DNA of 6,469 nt, taken from contig JAUVKM010000128.1 of the NCBI GenBank assembly GCA_030596265.1, positions 1 to 6,469 of the forward strand, read 5' to 3'. This document shows positions 335 through 6,270 of this stretch, piece by piece. Each line of letters starts with the position of its first letter. Within the stretch, counting starts at the first letter, position 1. Below the pieces are notes generated by a model that did no database searches, was not told the DNA's origin, and saw nothing but the letters and a program-made list of their open reading frames with translations. This stretch comes from Candidatus Cloacimonadota bacterium (GTDB lineage: Bacteria; Cloacimonadota; Cloacimonadia; Cloacimonadales; TCS61). Both the position numbers and the translations under genes were made by a program.

Positions 335-2296
335 CTATTTGATTAACAGCATCTTCTTTGAAACTTCAGAAGAAACTGTTTTCATTTTCACAAAGTACAT
401 TCCACTAGACGTTGAATTGCCATTGTTGTCTTTTCCATTCCAAACAAAGTTTGTAGTTTGTACAACTTCATTATTCACAATTGTTTTAACAAGCTGTCCT
501 TTTATGTTGAATATCTCAATTGATACAGGCTGTTGAATATCATTCTCATTAATTGAAAGAGCAATGTTTGCTGTCGGATTGAACGGATTTGGGTAAACAG
601 AGATAGAATTAATAGCGATCACATCAACTGTATTATCATCAGAATCTGTTGGTCCCATACTATTAGGACCGCCATAAGCACCCATATCGTTTCTTGATCC
701 ATCAGGATCGTTGTACATTGCATCAGGATTACCGGCATTTATGCAAGGTGAACCAGTTTGCAGCCACCAAGATGCGATAAGTCCGTTATAGTCTGTTCCA
801 TCTCCGGCTGTTGGTGCTACGAAGAGTGGATCTTCATCAATATTACCCTCACCTGCAAATCCACCTGTTACACAACTATATGTAATTTCAGGAGTACCTG
901 GGTAATGAATTTCACCATTATCTATGATGATTGAGTTGGTAATAATTGGAACTGAATTCAAAAGGAACATCAGATATGATGTTGAATTAGTTGATAAATT
1001 ATTCGCTATAGTATTGTTAGTTAAAATTGCATTAGAATCATTTTTGAAACTGAATGCTCCCCACTGTCCTGTGTTGTTTACAATAGCATTGTTTACTATC
1101 TCTATAGTAGATGCAGTACATCTTATACCACCTGCACAGCCTGCACTTGTATTATTGGAAATAATATTTTGTGAGATTAGAACATTATCAGATCCTACAA
1201 TCTCAAATGCTGCAGCTTGTGAAGTAGTATTGTTATTAAATATCTTACATCCGATAATATCAACCTTAGAATCACCTTCAACTTTGATTGCAGAAATAGT
1301 AGCTTTGGAGATCTCACAATTAGCAAGAATATTATCCTCTTGAGTATCAAAGAATCTAATACCATTCCATGAAGTATCTGAAGTGAAAACAATAGGTTCA
1401 CTTCTTGTAGAAGAAGCATCTGCTACCAGAGTCCCATTGACCATAAATTGCACATCATCTGAGAATTGTAATTCAACATCAGGATTTATTATTAGTTCAT
1501 CACCTTCTGCAATACTAACATCACCTGTTATAATGTATGTATACTCAGGATGCCAAATGCCTGAAAGATGTCCGTAAATATTGGATCCATCATTGACCGT
1601 GATATAATTTTCAAGAGTTTTTGTATCACTTTCACCATCAAGATATACTGTAAGTGAAACATCATAGGTTCCCTGCTCAGTATATAGATAATAAGGATCT
1701 TCTTCTGTGCTGTCAATCTCACCATCACCATCAAAATCCCATTCCCAGGCATCAATTACTCCTGTTGGTGAGGTTGACATGCTTGTAAACTGCACACCGA
1801 GATCTAAAGGACCAATTTGTACATTAGATGCTATACCAGCACTAAGACCGAAATTTGCAATAGCATTATCAAGTGGACCAGAAATTCCATTAACGCCATT
1901 GTCACCATAGTAAAGTTCGTTGAGTGGTCCTACCACTGCAAAAAATGGGACATATCCATTTCCCCAGTCCCAATATATTGCTCCAAGACCAGACCAATCT
2001 GGATGTGTATGGGTTGCTCCCCAATCAGTTTCCGATAAAAAATATGCATGTCCACCTGCTTCATATTGTTCCCATAAAGTTTGATAAGTCGGCGCCGCCG
2101 CTACACAGCCAGGTCAACCATAACCTCCCCAAAAGAATACAACTGCTTTTCCAGAAGCAGTTAATTCATAAATGGAATGAGCTTCTCCATTACTATCAGT
2201 CCAACTGACATCATTAACAATGTCTCCAACCTGATATTGTGCAAACGCACTAACAGAAAGGATCACTAAAAAAAACACTACTAAGATCTTTTTCAT
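335..2296 (-). CDS. Secreted selenoprotein: Sec-thioredoxin, PKD, beta-helix, T9SS sorting domain (in-frame UGA = Sec)
   Basis: This is a 653-residue reading frame from ATG 2296 to TAG 335, open except for one TGA at codon 61. A strong AAGGAG site (2308-2303) precedes the start. Residues 1-19 are a signal peptide (cut near AFA|Q). Residues 20 to about 155 are a redoxin/TlpA-like thioredoxin fold: the WTDSNGE strand, FFWGGYG-U-PGC with Sec61 and resolving Cys64, and the cis-proline motif GYVPFF (Pro117). The fold is completed only if the TGA is read through. Residues 165-236 form a PKD domain (WEWDFDGDGEID, GTYDVSLTV). Residues 238-545 are right-handed beta-helix repeats rich in N-N-T/I turns, ending SPCINAGNPD and GAYGGP. 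Residues 565-653 are a T9SS type A/FlgD-like sorting domain (YPNPFNP, SSGMYF, KKMLLIK). The protein should be exported and then attached to or released at the cell surface. Its substrate is unknown. A conventional gene caller would split it into a 60-residue fragment and a thioredoxin-less 533-residue protein starting at GTG 1936. Confidence 0.85.
2088..2104 (-). promoter_or_regulatory. Candidate bacterial SECIS hairpin
   Basis: In the mRNA just after the UGA, CGGC (bases 14-17 past the UGA) pairs with GCCG (bases 21-24) around a GGC loop (bases 18-20). GU (10-11) can pair with AC (25-26) across a two-base AG bulge. A short GC-rich apical stem, guanines at the start of a small loop, and a loop about 18-20 bases after UGA fit the general bacterial SECIS pattern bound by SelB. 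The stretch encodes Ala-Ala-Ala-Pro as GCG GCG GCG CCG, while nearby Ala codons are GCA or GCT, which suggests selection on RNA structure. A weaker alternative pairing uses GGC at bases 4-6 with GCC at 21-23. The exact fold is inferred by eye. Confidence 0.6.
2114..2116 (-). other. Recoded UGA (selenocysteine 61)
   Basis: The in-frame TGA stands at the first redox position of a thioredoxin motif and gives U-P-G-C, the Sec form of a CxxC site. The preceding FFWGGYG matches the strand and loop that lead to the active site in TlpA/ResA proteins; compare DFWATWCVPC in the gene at 4585-5124. No other gene in the window contains an in-frame TGA or ends in TGA: the six stops visible are TAA or TAG. 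A Gly-type reassignment of UGA would have scattered many TGAs, so site-specific Sec insertion is the best reading. Confidence 0.85.
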
Positions 2297-2310: not shown

Positions 2311-2384
2311 AAAAATCGGCTTGCTTTAGCAAACGATTTCCTTTTTTAAGAGTCGGCTTGCGTAAGCAAACGATCTCCTTTTTT
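2311..2384. repeat. Two tandem copies of a 37-bp palindromic repeat next to the selenoprotein RBS
   Basis: Two 23-base palindromic cores, 2315-2337 and 2352-2374, lie exactly 37 bp apart. Each has ATCG (or GTCG), GC, TTGC, a four-base loop, GCAA, A, CGAT. On the minus strand each unit is preceded by an AAAAAGGA(G/A)A run. A third such run (AAAAGGAGA, 2310-2302) is the selenoprotein ribosome binding site. The unit may therefore have duplicated, or inserted, at a Shine-Dalgarno sequence. The cores resemble the hairpins at 166-185 and 228-249. The repeat widens this gap to 87 bp, against 9-21 bp elsewhere in the operon. Confidence 0.75.
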
Positions 2385-3109
2385 TATTTAATTAAGATCA
2401 TTTTTCTTATTATCGAAGTTTTTATGCAATTTAATTTGTAAAAATAAACACCTGAGTTAACGACATTATTATTATTATTTCTTCCATCCCAAACAATATT
2501 CCCACTTGTATTTAGGTTTTTAAAAGTTCTAACTAATTGCCCTCTTGTATTGTATATTGTAATGTTTGCTTCCGCTAATTCTTCAGAAGTTAACTCATAA
2601 GAAATTATTGTACTTGGATTAAATGGGTTAGGATAGTTTTGAGAGAGTTTTGAGAGTAAAACTAATTCATCATTCGCACTTACATTGTCAGCAGTATTAA
2701 AAGTGAAATCTAAAATTATAGGTTCTGTAAGATCTCCACCATCAAGTGTAATATTCAAACCACAACCACCTGTACTATTCACACCCAACATAAAATGTAC
2801 TAATAAAGATTCACCAGCATTAATATCAACTGGAGCAGCCATATTGGCAATAAAACATAAACCCAAATCATTACAAACACTGGCTGTCCAATCAACCGGC
2901 AAATCACTGTAAGACCAAATTAGAGAATAAGTTTCATTTGTTGAACCAATATTCGTGATCGTTATCCAATCCGATTCAAAAATATAGGAACCAACTATTG
3001 AAAAATCATCACCGATCATATCCATATCAAATGGAATATCAACTTCTAACTCTGCAAAAACAAGACTCAAGCTCATAATCAAAAATGCGAATAAAATTAA
3101 CTTTTTCAT
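2384..3109 (-). CDS. Small secreted protein with T9SS type A sorting domain
   Basis: This is a 241-residue exported protein. Residues 1-19 are a signal peptide (cut at VFA|E). Residues 20-140 look like an all-beta, immunoglobulin-like domain: WITITNIGSTNETYSLIW, then PVDWTASVCNDLGLC, then GESLLVHFMLGV. It has three cysteines (79, 85, 116), and the W-x(4)-C-x(5)-C arrangement suggests a disulfide. Residues 155-241 are a typical T9SS/FlgD-like sorting domain with NYPNPFNPST, YNTRGQLV, VWDGR, NSGVYFYKL and RKMILIK. The start is supported by AAGGAG seven bases upstream, 19 bp after the stop of the barrel gene. The sorting domain implies passage through the T9SS to the cell surface. I do not recognise the N-terminal domain as a named family. 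Its cysteines make it a possible client or partner of the neighbouring thioredoxins, which is inference. Confidence 0.85.
   Translation of the reverse strand: MKKLILFAFLIMSLSLVFAELEVDIPFDMDMIGDDFSIVGSYIFESDWITITNIGSTNETYSLIWSYSDLPVDWTASVCNDLGLCFIANMAAPVDINAGESLLVHFMLGVNSTGGCGLNITLDGGDLTEPIILDFTFNTADNVSANDELVLLSKLSQNYPNPFNPSTIISYELTSEELAEANITIYNTRGQLVRTFKNLNTSGNIVWDGRNNNNNVVNSGVYFYKLNCIKTSIIRKMILIK
2465..2479. repeat. ATT x5 microsatellite inside the T9SS sorting domain
   Basis: Five perfect ATT units (AAT on the coding strand) encode Asn211-Asn215 in the loop following VWDGR. Related sorting domains have DxNG-type residues in this loop, so length changes by whole codons should be tolerated. 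It is a simple slippage-prone tract with no clear regulatory meaning. Confidence 0.8.
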
Positions 3110-3128: not shown

Positions 3129-4574
3129 TTAAAACGTCGTTGTCACGGTCAGGCGAACTCCATCAAATTCTGCCTGATTTTTGCAAACACCATTACGGCA
3201 GACTATACCGCCTTTTTCTTTACCATAGAATAATCGCAAATCAGTATTATTGAATATTGTTGTTGCAATTTCTCCACCTATCCAGAATTCACCATCATCT
3301 CCGTCTTCTGCCGATTCCGATTCACCGATCTGATTTTCTACAGCAACAGATAAGGAATAGTTCCCAATTGAGATATCTGTCTGCAAACGTGGTTCAAAAT
3401 GAGAATGATTACCTGTTACCTTATCTTCTTCCTTATATTGATATTCAGCTTTTACCAAAACCGGACTATTTTTAATTAAAAAATCGAAAGTAAGAGTAGG
3501 AGTGATCTCCTTATACCATCTGTTTACATCTTCTTTATTAAGTTGCTCCAGCGATTCAAATTCAGCTTTAAACGACCAGTTCTCGAAATCATGTTTGAAT
3601 TCGGTATAAAGGTTGGATAACCGAACCATGTAATTACTATTCCAGCCTTCGGCATAATTTATTACAAATTCATTTTCATAATTAGGAATGAAACGGATCT
3701 CTCCCATCAGTCCTTCTTCATCTTTTCCCGGATCCCAACTGTGTTCCAATACTTGTCCAGCATGATTTACCATAGGAAGGTCGGATATTCTCACATCAAA
3801 ATTCTCATAATTTTTATAAGCACCCATTAGAGTGAATTTACCGAAGTAAGATGTAATGTTGGAATAGACCGCTGTTCCTTCTAAATTATAATCATCATTG
3901 CTTGTTGCATATTCAGCCATTAGATCGAATAGGGAAGAGGAGTAGTTAAATTTTCCAGCATAAACAGTTCTATTATTGAATTCATTTTCATCAGCATCAA
4001 AGAGCTCTTTATGTAGAACGTAACTACCACCTATCGTCAAATTATTCAATATATTGAAATCAACATCAAAGGCACCCACTTGATCATACTCATCTTCAAA
4101 GTTAGGATCAGGATTATCGCTTTCCATTTTACCAGCGAATAATTGTACTTGCCATCTATCATATACCGGATTTACATAACCACCGAATAATCTGGAGTCG
4201 GTTTCAAAATCATCATCATAAAAATTATGTAATACAATACCGGAACCAATTACAGCTTCATAAGTTCCAATTTGTGCAAACCAAACATCAGATTCGTATT
4301 GAAGATAATGCTTACCAAGGCGAATCTCATCATCTTCTTCAGAATTCAAAGAAAATTTGTCGAATTTTGGATGATAAAGATCACAATTGATGCCTGCCCT
4401 GAAGTTCTTGTATTGTGCCTGAATTTGGAATTCATTTGAAAAATAGTTTTTACCCTCATTGTCTTTATTAGAATATATATATTGAAATTCATTTAATCCT
4501 GAAAAACTTAGTTCAGAATAAAGCATATTCGCAGCAAAAAATATCACCAATAATGCAAATAAAATTTTTCTCAT
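3129..4574 (-). CDS. Outer-membrane beta-barrel protein (DUF6029-like)
   Basis: This is a 481-residue protein with a signal peptide (residues 1-20, cut near LYS|E). The rest alternates hydrophobic and polar residues in aromatic-rich strands joined by acidic loops (for example DDDFETD, SNDDYN, ESAEDGDDGE). It ends in a strand GVRLTVTTTF, whose terminal Phe fits the C-terminal beta-signal read by the BAM complex. The layout resembles the DUF6029-type barrels of FCB bacteria, including the penultimate hairpin KGGIVCRNGVCKN with Cys459 and Cys464. A GGTGA site lies six bases before the ATG, and only 10 bp separate it from the preceding thioredoxin stop, so the two are almost certainly co-transcribed. 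It could be a porin, a transporter, or an assembly or redox partner of the neighbouring thiol proteins; the sequence does not decide. The barrel call is firm, the family name less so. Confidence 0.8.
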   Translation of the reverse strand: MRKILFALLVIFFAANMLYSELSFSGLNEFQYIYSNKDNEGKNYFSNEFQIQAQYKNFRAGINCDLYHPKFDKFSLNSEEDDEIRLGKHYLQYESDVWFAQIGTYEAVIGSGIVLHNFYDDDFETDSRLFGGYVNPVYDRWQVQLFAGKMESDNPDPNFEDEYDQVGAFDVDFNILNNLTIGGSYVLHKELFDADENEFNNRTVYAGKFNYSSSLFDLMAEYATSNDDYNLEGTAVYSNITSYFGKFTLMGAYKNYENFDVRISDLPMVNHAGQVLEHSWDPGKDEEGLMGEIRFIPNYENEFVINYAEGWNSNYMVRLSNLYTEFKHDFENWSFKAEFESLEQLNKEDVNRWYKEITPTLTFDFLIKNSPVLVKAEYQYKEEDKVTGNHSHFEPRLQTDISIGNYSLSVAVENQIGESESAEDGDDGEFWIGGEIATTIFNNTDLRLFYGKEKGGIVCRNGVCKNQAEFDGVRLTVTTTF

Positions 4575-4584
4575 TTTTTCACCA

Positions 4585-5124
4585 TTAATTTTCCGGAACT
4601 TCAGTTTCGAACTCAGATGTGTTTTCTTCGGGTTTATTGATTTTCTGTTCTTCCAACCATTCCACGATCATCTCTTCATAATGTTTTTCATCACCCCGCT
4701 GGTAACCTGTATGGTTGTAAATTATTGTTCCATCCTGATCTATGATCAAAGTACGCGGAATATTTGTAATGTTATATTGCTTTTGAACAATTTTTTTCGA
4801 ATCGAATAACGTATGAAATTTAAACCGATTCGATTTTACATGAGAAATAGCATTAGATTTTTTTCGTGGTTTATCGACGTTGATTGCCAATACATTAACA
4901 TTATCATATTTCTCATGTAATTCATTCAGTTTAGGAAGTCCGTTTTTACAGGGAACACACCAAGTTGCCCAAAAATCTAATATCACTAAACCTTCTTTTT
5001 GAAAATCGGATAGTTTAACTTGTTTACCATCAATATTTTCCAGTTTAAAATCACCGGCTTTTTCAGCAGCAGTTAATTGAATTGCCAGAACCACGATCAG
5101 TATAGTTATAAAAATATTTTTCAT
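4585..5124 (-). CDS. Periplasmic TlpA/ResA-like thiol-disulfide oxidoreductase
   Basis: This is a 179-residue exported thioredoxin-fold protein. Residues 1-20 are a signal peptide (cut near TAA|E). Residues 22-160 are a complete redoxin/AhpC-TSA-type domain: GDFKLENIDGKQVKLSDF, the strand LVILDFWATW, the active site W55-C56-V57-P58-C59, LAINVDK, and TNIPRTLIID with cis-Pro123. The family transfers electrons to disulfides of envelope proteins, as in cytochrome c maturation or general disulfide reduction, usually recharged by a DsbD/CcdA-type membrane protein. Such a protein is suggested by the gene at the right edge. The last 20 residues form an acidic, Glu-rich tail with no known role. A TAAGGAG site lies nine bases before the ATG, and 21 bp separate it from the upstream gene. 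This is the window's canonical Cys-Cys counterpart of the Sec-Cys domain downstream. Confidence 0.93.
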   Translation of the reverse strand: MKNIFITILIVVLAIQLTAAEKAGDFKLENIDGKQVKLSDFQKEGLVILDFWATWCVPCKNGLPKLNELHEKYDNVNVLAINVDKPRKKSNAISHVKSNRFKFHTLFDSKKIVQKQYNITNIPRTLIIDQDGTIIYNHTGYQRGDEKHYEEMIVEWLEEQKINKPEENTSEFETEVPEN

Positions 5125-5145
5125 TATATATTACTCCTTAATTAT

Positions 5146-6261
5146 TTATAGAGAAACTTCTATTACGTTGTGTACAGCACATGAATTTTGATTATATTGT
5201 GTCTCTAAAGTTTGAACCCAGATCACAAGAGTAAGATCTTCAGGTAAGCCGGTTGCATTGTCTATATACCATTGTGGTAGAACATTCAGATCAGTTATTT
5301 CAAAATCAACAGAGACTGGATCATCAAAGTTTAGAGTCGAAATATCTATGGCTATTCGCTTTAAGGCAATGTTGTGATGTGGATTGCCATGATGATTCGG
5401 ATACTCCTCATTATAATCTTCCATCAAAACTGCAACTAATGTAAGATTTTCGGTTGGAATAGAAGGATTAATTTCGACATGGACAGATCCTGTAAGCAAA
5501 GAATCTGTAAGATTTGTTTGCACATCAGTTAATAGTACTGCGAGAGGTTCCTGAAGAAGGGGTGTTATTGCTGTTTCAATTTCAACCTCAATTTCCTCAA
5601 TGCTAGGAGCAGAATATACTATGTGAGCATTTCCGTTCACTATGCCAAGAGGTAAAGAACCAGTATTAGGATAATAACTGAATAAACCAGAGAAATCACC
5701 GGCAAGTTGATCTCCAATATGATATTCCACATACGAAAATCTGCTTCCATATTGCATTCTCAGGTTGTGTAATGCTTCTTCAGCATTTGGGCAATTAGAA
5801 CACCATTGACCCGTGAAAAGTTCTACTATGATCTTTCTTGCATTGTTTTGATCTCCATAAAATACAAATCCTTCATTTTCTTCAATTAAGAAGTCAATAA
5901 ATGTAATATCTGCCAGAATCTCGAGATCACTATTTATAGCTGTAAAATGCCAACTCACATTTAGTGATGGAGAGATTATAATCTCATCAGCACTGAATGT
6001 AGTATTCGGATCAATAAGAAAGAAACTGGCAAAATAATCTATTTTATCGTCTTTCGTGATGTCCTGATTATAATAATTATCGGAAAAAAGAAAACTGAGC
6101 TCCAGATAATTATTTTGGTTTGTAGAGGCAAATAGATCAGTGATTGACTCAGCAAATTCGTCTAAACCAATATTACTAACACCTGGCTCTAAAACGTGTT
6201 CAAATCTATCGCAGGAGAATAACACTAATGTGAGAAAAAACAAGATTAAGATCTTCTTCAT
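5146..6261 (-). CDS. Omp28-related thioredoxin-fold lipoprotein
   Basis: Starting at ATG 6261 this is a 371-residue lipoprotein. The signal peptide MKKILILFFLTLVLFS precedes the lipidated Cys17 (lipobox LFSC). Residues 20-140 are an all-beta or mixed region with no recognised family. Residues 145-230 are a thioredoxin-like domain: KIIVELFTGQWCSNC with Cys154 and Cys157, the helix PNAEEALHNL, YVEYHIGD, and the cis-proline motif GSLPLGIVNG (Pro204). Residues 235-371 match the beta-sandwich that follows thioredoxin in Omp28-type proteins (LTLVAVLMEDY, ALKRIAIDI, LTLVIWVQ). They also carry a histidine cluster (HHGNPHH, residues 291-296) and a lone Cys361 in a region where the family typically has VVAFVQD-like strands. 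The Asp after the lipid Cys would mean inner-membrane retention in E. coli, but that rule does not clearly hold in FCB bacteria. A GTG at 6267 could add two residues. The role is probably envelope thiol-disulfide exchange. Confidence 0.88.
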   Translation of the reverse strand: MKKILILFFLTLVLFSCDRFEHVLEPGVSNIGLDEFAESITDLFASTNQNNYLELSFLFSDNYYNQDITKDDKIDYFASFFLIDPNTTFSADEIIISPSLNVSWHFTAINSDLEILADITFIDFLIEENEGFVFYGDQNNARKIIVELFTGQWCSNCPNAEEALHNLRMQYGSRFSYVEYHIGDQLAGDFSGLFSYYPNTGSLPLGIVNGNAHIVYSAPSIEEIEVEIETAITPLLQEPLAVLLTDVQTNLTDSLLTGSVHVEINPSIPTENLTLVAVLMEDYNEEYPNHHGNPHHNIALKRIAIDISTLNFDDPVSVDFEITDLNVLPQWYIDNATGLPEDLTLVIWVQTLETQYNQNSCAVHNVIEVSL

Positions 6262-6263
6262 TT

Positions 6264-6270
6264 TCACCTT
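6264..6270 (-). promoter_or_regulatory. Ribosome binding site that decides the Omp28-like start
   Basis: AAGGTGA matches the right half of the Shine-Dalgarno consensus (GGAGGTGA) and lies just before ATG 6261. The alternative GTG start at 6267-6265 is inside this motif, so it would have no properly spaced site of its own. The motif begins immediately beyond the TAG stop of the preceding gene (6273-6271). Confidence 0.65.

Follow-up and report, generated by a model that had tools for sequence, protein, structure and literature searches.

Selenoproteins of prokaryotes have been sorted into 119 families or subfamilies in Table 1 of a 2026 paper (PMC13188914), by its own count, and three of the families named there combine a thioredoxin fold with a UxxC motif, in which selenocysteine (Sec) takes the place of the first redox-active Cys: the "Thiol-disulfide isomerase-like protein" (cd02966), the "Redoxin family protein" (PF08534), and the "Prx-like thiol:disulfide oxidoreductase" (PF00578). 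The protein analyzed here, from a member of the Cloacimonadota, shares with the UxxC selenoproteins, as far as that paper describes them, the Sec-first UxxC, a SECIS-like hairpin after the UGA, and the existence of Cys homologs, but it differs from their descriptions in having a thioredoxin-fold domain that falls below domain cut-offs, sequence motifs of its own, and a place as the head of a multidomain protein that has a sorting tail; its architecture is absent from that Table 1 when families are compared by name, not by sequence. ResA/TlpA oxidoreductases are the nearest described relatives of the head in kind, with 11 to 18% identity in the structures matched; unlike them, our protein would have Sec in place of the first Cys and would carry the domain as the head of a large exported protein. 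The C terminus resembles that of type IX secretion system (T9SS) cargo with a type A sorting domain, except that here the cargo would contain Sec. In open papers, selenocysteine and the T9SS occurred together in two, each with a single mention of either term, and no bacterial selenoprotein with a PKD domain was found in the open literature. Open papers, a scope that leaves paywalled work and preprints outside, likewise held nothing on Cloacimonadota together with selenoprotein or selenocysteine. A Cloacimonetes-type tRNA-Sec is mentioned in PMC5330540, and the presence of tRNA-Sec in the phylum is thus already in print; the string Cloacimon- does not occur in the passages of PMC12013277 consulted. 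The protein family itself was not found in print; we regard it as a new family, of a kind that is known but with an architecture that is unusual.

Our results strongly suggest that this gene encodes an exported selenoprotein in which Sec is inserted at residue 61 with the aid of a hairpin, that the protein is probably delivered to the cell surface by the T9SS, and that its head acts as a ResA/TlpA-type oxidoreductase; we give this reading a probability of about 0.95. Taken together, the genes are best read as coding for a new family of UxxC selenoproteins that are exported. In the window, by which we mean the whole stretch of 6,469 nucleotides analyzed, the complete gene occupies positions 335 to 2296 of the minus strand: it opens with an ATG at 2296, continues for 60 codons to a TGA, remains open for a further 592 codons, and closes with a TAG ending at 335, giving 653 residues if the TGA is read as Sec. 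The frame holds one TGA over its whole length, at positions 2114 to 2116 (minus strand), which would place Sec61 at position 1 of the motif UPGC (residues 61 to 64). The second member of the UxxC pair, Cys64 (TGT, positions 2105 to 2107, minus strand), is Cys in all 37 rows of the head alignment and in the row omitted from it. Pro117 (positions 1946 to 1948, minus strand), presumed to be the cis-Pro that faces the active site, is likewise Pro in 37 of 37 rows. The initial annotation had claimed a 60-codon frame continued beyond the TGA without a stop, a Cys three residues after the TGA, and a cis-Pro at 117, and each was found at the stated place, the cis state of the proline being presumed. 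The span it had given, 2060 to 2296, takes in the TGA and the hairpin along with the N-terminal part of the protein, but the gene extends to 335; the hairpin, the spread of the family through the phylum, the PKD, beta-helix, and T9SS-type parts, and the link to selC, selA, and selB had no place in that annotation.

The predicted protein is built from several recognizable parts. Residues 1 to 19 (positions 2240 to 2296, minus strand), which begin with MKKILVVFFLVILSVSAFA, look like a signal peptide when judged by eye, in agreement with the initial annotation. They are followed by a thioredoxin-fold domain (residues 20 to 150; positions 1847 to 2239, minus strand), assigned from an AlphaFold model and ResA-type matches; a PKD domain (residues 166 to 234; positions 1595 to 1801, minus strand; Pfam PF18911, E value of 1.9e-10, best stretch 168 to 234), with a second PKD match to Pfam PF00801 over residues 166 to 229; a right-handed beta-helix region (residues 317 to 461; positions 914 to 1348, minus strand; Pfam PF13229, E value of 2.5e-8); and a T9SS-type C-terminal sorting domain/FlgD-Ig (residues 567 to 649; positions 350 to 598, minus strand; Pfam PF18962, E value of 1.8e-9), for which TIGR04183 gave a score of 36.7 against a cut-off of 23. 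A gene for a SprA-like translocon was over the cut-off in seven of seven relatives' genomes tested, and the PorU sortase model reached its cut-off in one of the seven. The AlphaFold model had a mean pLDDT of 87.2, with block means of 88 to 97 for residues 21 to 150, and contains a helix at residues 62 to 79, with Pro117 standing immediately before the strand 118 to 122. In the model, the head thus has the thioredoxin fold, with the UxxC at the N terminus of the catalytic helix and the conserved Pro opposite. Its scores were below the Pfam cut-offs for Redoxin (23.9 versus 26.6 bits) and AhpC-TSA (23.6 versus 26 bits), and we therefore treat it as a domain that works like ResA/TlpA and forms a family of its own; the NCBIfam matches at E values up to 1 included no selenoprotein model. 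Several members, L043 and L048 among them, carry the Sec head on different C-terminal bodies, which suggests that the head is an exchangeable module. No beta-helix domain is among the precomputed Pfam matches of P0014, under which the L043 protein is found in the database; P0014 is 99% identical over the overlap to the member in genome G074, yet it is labeled Armatimonadetes in NCBI, perhaps because of a mislabeled bin. Downstream of the selenoprotein gene, G100 has another such body (L067, 10189 to 11706), with 77% identity to residues 150 to 653.

The same in-frame TGA recurs in many genomes of the phylum, far more than chance would explain. Among 124 Cloacimonadota genomes, 38 matches had E values of 1e-20 or below (matches above 1e-20 were treated as ordinary thioredoxins), and 37 of them, in 32 genomes, contain exactly one TGA. 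A scan of genome contigs had already shown at least four Cloacimonadota genomes among the matches listed, each with the TGA at the same codon, and full-length tblastn alignments to residues 1 to 653 were obtained in five loci (L001, L002, L003, L053, and L067). A Cys follows three residues after the TGA in all 38 TGA sites, the window included; sites were located by a pattern that requires this Cys, and L048 (L061) was found without that condition. The sole exception among the 38 strong matches is a degenerate paralog (G068:C160; L059, 1482 to 1931) that has no TGA and has Ser at both active-site positions; redox chemistry seems to have been lost from its head. A weak relative, G107:C101 (L060; E value of 3.9e-7), has TGA-PNC with a further TGA soon after, may be a short selenoprotein of another type or else a broken gene, and was excluded from the TGA-site, codon, pair, and alignment counts. 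In the head alignment (A3, with all of the 38 TGA sites except the second copy in G101), the protein is conserved both before and after the TGA, and the invariant columns of the 37 heads include the TGA column, Cys64, Ala68, Pro69, Trp92, Asn113, Gly114, and Pro117, with distinctive motifs around UxxCxAAAP and GNGYxPFF. Identity to the head of the window's protein is 36 to 57%, except in four near relatives at 72 to 92%; those in G100 and G001 are 90% identical, which, together with the shared gene order described below, indicates that the window itself belongs to this phylum. Outside the phylum, the scan of genome contigs listed a distant Omnitrophota locus (L005) with 24% identity, which has CPHC at the site and no TGA. 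No match was found in phage records (megablast) or plasmid records, and none was confirmed in viral contigs.

The DNA that follows the TGA appears to be under selection beyond its coding function. Thirteen nucleotides past the TGA, the near-constant sequence CGGCGGCGCCG, which encodes the end of the AAAP motif, is exact in 33 of the 38 sites. Over the 38 frames, GCG accounts for 100 of the 103 Ala codons at +4 to +7 after the TGA but for 97 of the 1469 Ala codons outside this stretch, and the Pro codon of the motif is CCG in 35 of 38, compared with 141 of 901 elsewhere in these frames. The heads are mostly 36 to 57% identical to that of the window's protein, yet these GCG and CCG codons are nearly fixed, which points to constraint on the nucleic acid. 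We propose that this stretch forms a SECIS hairpin (positions 2086 to 2104, minus strand), on the evidence of this codon bias, of covariation, and of a pattern survey. Its core, CGGC-GGC-GCCG, lies at 2100 to 2090; the GGC loop begins after 17 nucleotides following the UGA, and the core stem is 4 bp in the window and longer in many relatives. The published model of the bacterial SECIS (PMC13188914) sets rules on loop, stem, spacing, and G position, and the hairpin fits these rules as that paper gives them. The same model sets a minimum free energy of at most -7.5 kcal/mol; the window hairpin has -5.4 kcal/mol for 24 nucleotides and -8.0 kcal/mol for 45 nucleotides, and several outer pairs do not match in the window's own copy. 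Folding the window alone, over 60 nucleotides from just before the UGA, gave no signal: 188 of 200 shuffles folded as well as the native sequence.

Across 37 distinct rows, 80.1% of the hairpin's cells are paired (shuffled mean, 73.1), and the covariation score of 0.218 (shuffled, 0.117) was reached by 0 of 500 shuffles; alignment A4 leaves out one of the 38 TGA sites, as an identical row. Changes on both sides were seen in five of eight hairpin pairs, which 23 of 500 shuffles equaled, and of five pair-count measures, four were unreached by the 500 shuffles and the fifth was reached by 23. Versions of the hairpin slid along the alignment scored 0.026 to 0.127 in covariation, and both the percentage paired and the covariation score of the proposed hairpin were above those of all six. 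A compensatory change is seen in G094, where GAGGC-GGC-GCCTC replaces GCGGC-GGC-GCCGC. RNAalifold favored another pairing, of columns 8 to 12 with 19 to 23, for which there was no covariation. Across the 124 genomes, the pattern TGA-N13-CGGCGGCGCCG had 40 exact matches, of which 32 belong to these genes and 8 fall outside them, and a reversed control pattern had no match in any genome listed. The eight matches outside the family lie in G024, G027, G028, G052, G053, G058 (two), and G070. Rfam gave four matches on the window, all below their gathering scores. The strictly conserved hairpin offers a clean natural data set on the recognition by SelB of its mRNA signal.

The machinery for Sec insertion, which the initial annotation had proposed to look for in the genome, was found in relatives. 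Over the 124 Cloacimonadota genomes, selB was detected in 58 (E value of 1e-60 or below; 55 over the cut-off), tRNA-Sec over the cut-off in 62, and selD over the cut-off in 59. The 32 gene-bearing genomes include 28 with selB, 29 with tRNA-Sec, 30 with either one, and, by a hand count, 24 with selD. At least one of selB and tRNA-Sec is thus present in 30 of 32 genomes with the gene versus 36 of the 92 others (Fisher p of 2.4e-8, uncorrected for kinship); in two gene-bearing genomes, G067 and G088, neither was found. Both tRNA-Sec and SelB were over their cut-offs in all of the first four relatives, and selA was identified in one locus, L063. SelD itself carries a TGA of its own in several genomes, for example one each in G001, G003, and G100; G100, nearest to the window by its head, has selB, tRNA-Sec, and this TGA-bearing selD. 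The window contains no tRNA.

Under the standard code TGA is a stop, and if it were one here, through pseudogenization or a sequencing error, the locus would yield a 60-residue fragment and a separately started downstream protein. Public annotation has largely this form. Three protein searches returned 29 database proteins. Two of them span the head completely; for the remaining 27, which include the window's own, coverage of the searched head is just 21 to 63%, and the nine inspected besides the window's own start at varying internal codons after the TGA. Gene callers typically start selenoproteins at internal codons past the UGA. The inspected downstream pieces, for their part, have no signal peptide and an incomplete thioredoxin fold, which argues against independently started proteins, as do the synonymous constraint after the TGA and the conservation of the protein on both sides of it. 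The TGA is found again at 37 sites, spread over 32 other genomes; this recurrence excludes a sequencing error, a possibility that the initial annotation had raised, and led us to reject a pseudogene as well, so that a true stop at this codon is in our view very improbable. With 27 of 29 database copies lacking a complete head, the catalytic site is invisible in current annotation, as the initial annotation had anticipated.

Two other ways of reading through the codon were weighed. TGA might be a sense codon throughout the lineage, for Trp or Gly, for example, and none of the six window frames checked ends in TGA; genes of the relatives do, however, such as selB in L064 (5839 to 7770), and the 38 frames contain 395 TGG codons past the TGA, from which we rejected a genome-wide reassignment. 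The TGA is moreover single, both in the window frame and in the matched stretch of each strong TGA match, and the homologs have Cys at the site, not Trp or Gly. We give lineage-wide sense decoding hardly any weight at all. These Cys forms, two among the 29 database proteins, are P0002 (GLGCGGC; CGGC) and P0013, from a more distant clade (ESWCADC; CADC), and they provide the Cys homologs that the initial annotation had suggested seeking. They are also what would be expected if UGA were recoded as Cys by a mischarged tRNA with a UCA anticodon. Against such recoding, the tRNAs with tca anticodons found by ARAGORN in eight loci were called tRNA-SeC, and selA beside the gene in L063, together with selD in the proportion of genomes given above, indicates that the usual Sec pathway is present; decoding as Cys seems to us most improbable. 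The recurrent TGA, the Cys homologs, and the machinery in the relatives thus support the earlier proposal that the UGA is read as Sec.

On the reading that this is an exported selenoprotein, SelB and Sec-tRNA-Sec, aided by the hairpin after the UGA, would insert Sec at residue 61, as suggested by the conservation of the site and the machinery of the relatives. The signal peptide would take the protein across the inner membrane, and the T9SS may then recognize the C-terminal tail and probably deliver the protein to the cell surface. There the Sec61/Cys64 head, with its fold taken from the model, could function as an oxidoreductase of the ResA/TlpA type that acts on thiols and disulfides (or on peroxide), carried on a PKD/beta-helix body. 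These findings add a selenoprotein family in about a quarter (32 of 124) of the Cloacimonadota genomes searched and place selenium chemistry on an apparently exported multidomain protein.

In 7 of the 32 gene-bearing genomes (G108, G109, G110, G112, G114, G115, and G124), the gene and tRNA-Sec are neighbors on one contig, in the same orientation. Six of these seven loci also have selB on the contig, the G108 piece being a fragment below the SelB cut-off, and in G124 selB is on another contig. The row in G115 (L063, 3203 to 8609) consists of the selenoprotein gene (3203 to 5131), tRNA-Sec (5163 to 5257), selA (5285 to 6670), and selB (6672 to 8609), with only 31, 27, and 1 bases between them, an arrangement suggestive of a single transcript. 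We speculate, as an unlikely extension of our results, that these are surface selenoproteins particular to the Cloacimonadota and that in one group the lead gene of the gene-selC-selA-selB row doubles as a selenium sensor. The arrangement is seen in the genomes; how it might work is a guess, in which UGA decoding, or termination under selenium starvation, would set the transcript amounts of selC, selA, and selB.

The neighborhood in the window is of a different kind and is itself conserved. Four genes on the minus strand lie beside the selenoprotein gene: one for a 241-residue protein with a sorting tail (positions 2384 to 3109), conserved next to the selenoprotein gene; one for a DUF6029 protein of 481 residues (3129 to 4574; Pfam PF19494, E value of 7.8e-24); one for a TlpA-type thioredoxin of 179 residues with the motif CVPC (4585 to 5124; Pfam PF00578, E value of 1.4e-24); and one for a lipoprotein-like protein of 373 residues with a CSNCPN motif and a weak, sub-cut-off match to DUF1223 (5146 to 6267). 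The last three are likewise syntenic, all four occurring in the same order in L001, L003, L053, and L067; in L002, the DUF6029 protein and the short tail protein are kept, and then the contig ends. Palindrome-like intergenic stretches of the GCTTGC..GCAAGC type are found in the window at 2310 to 2395 and at about 150 to 250, and a similar one immediately precedes the gene in L002; by eye, they look like an interspersed repeat.
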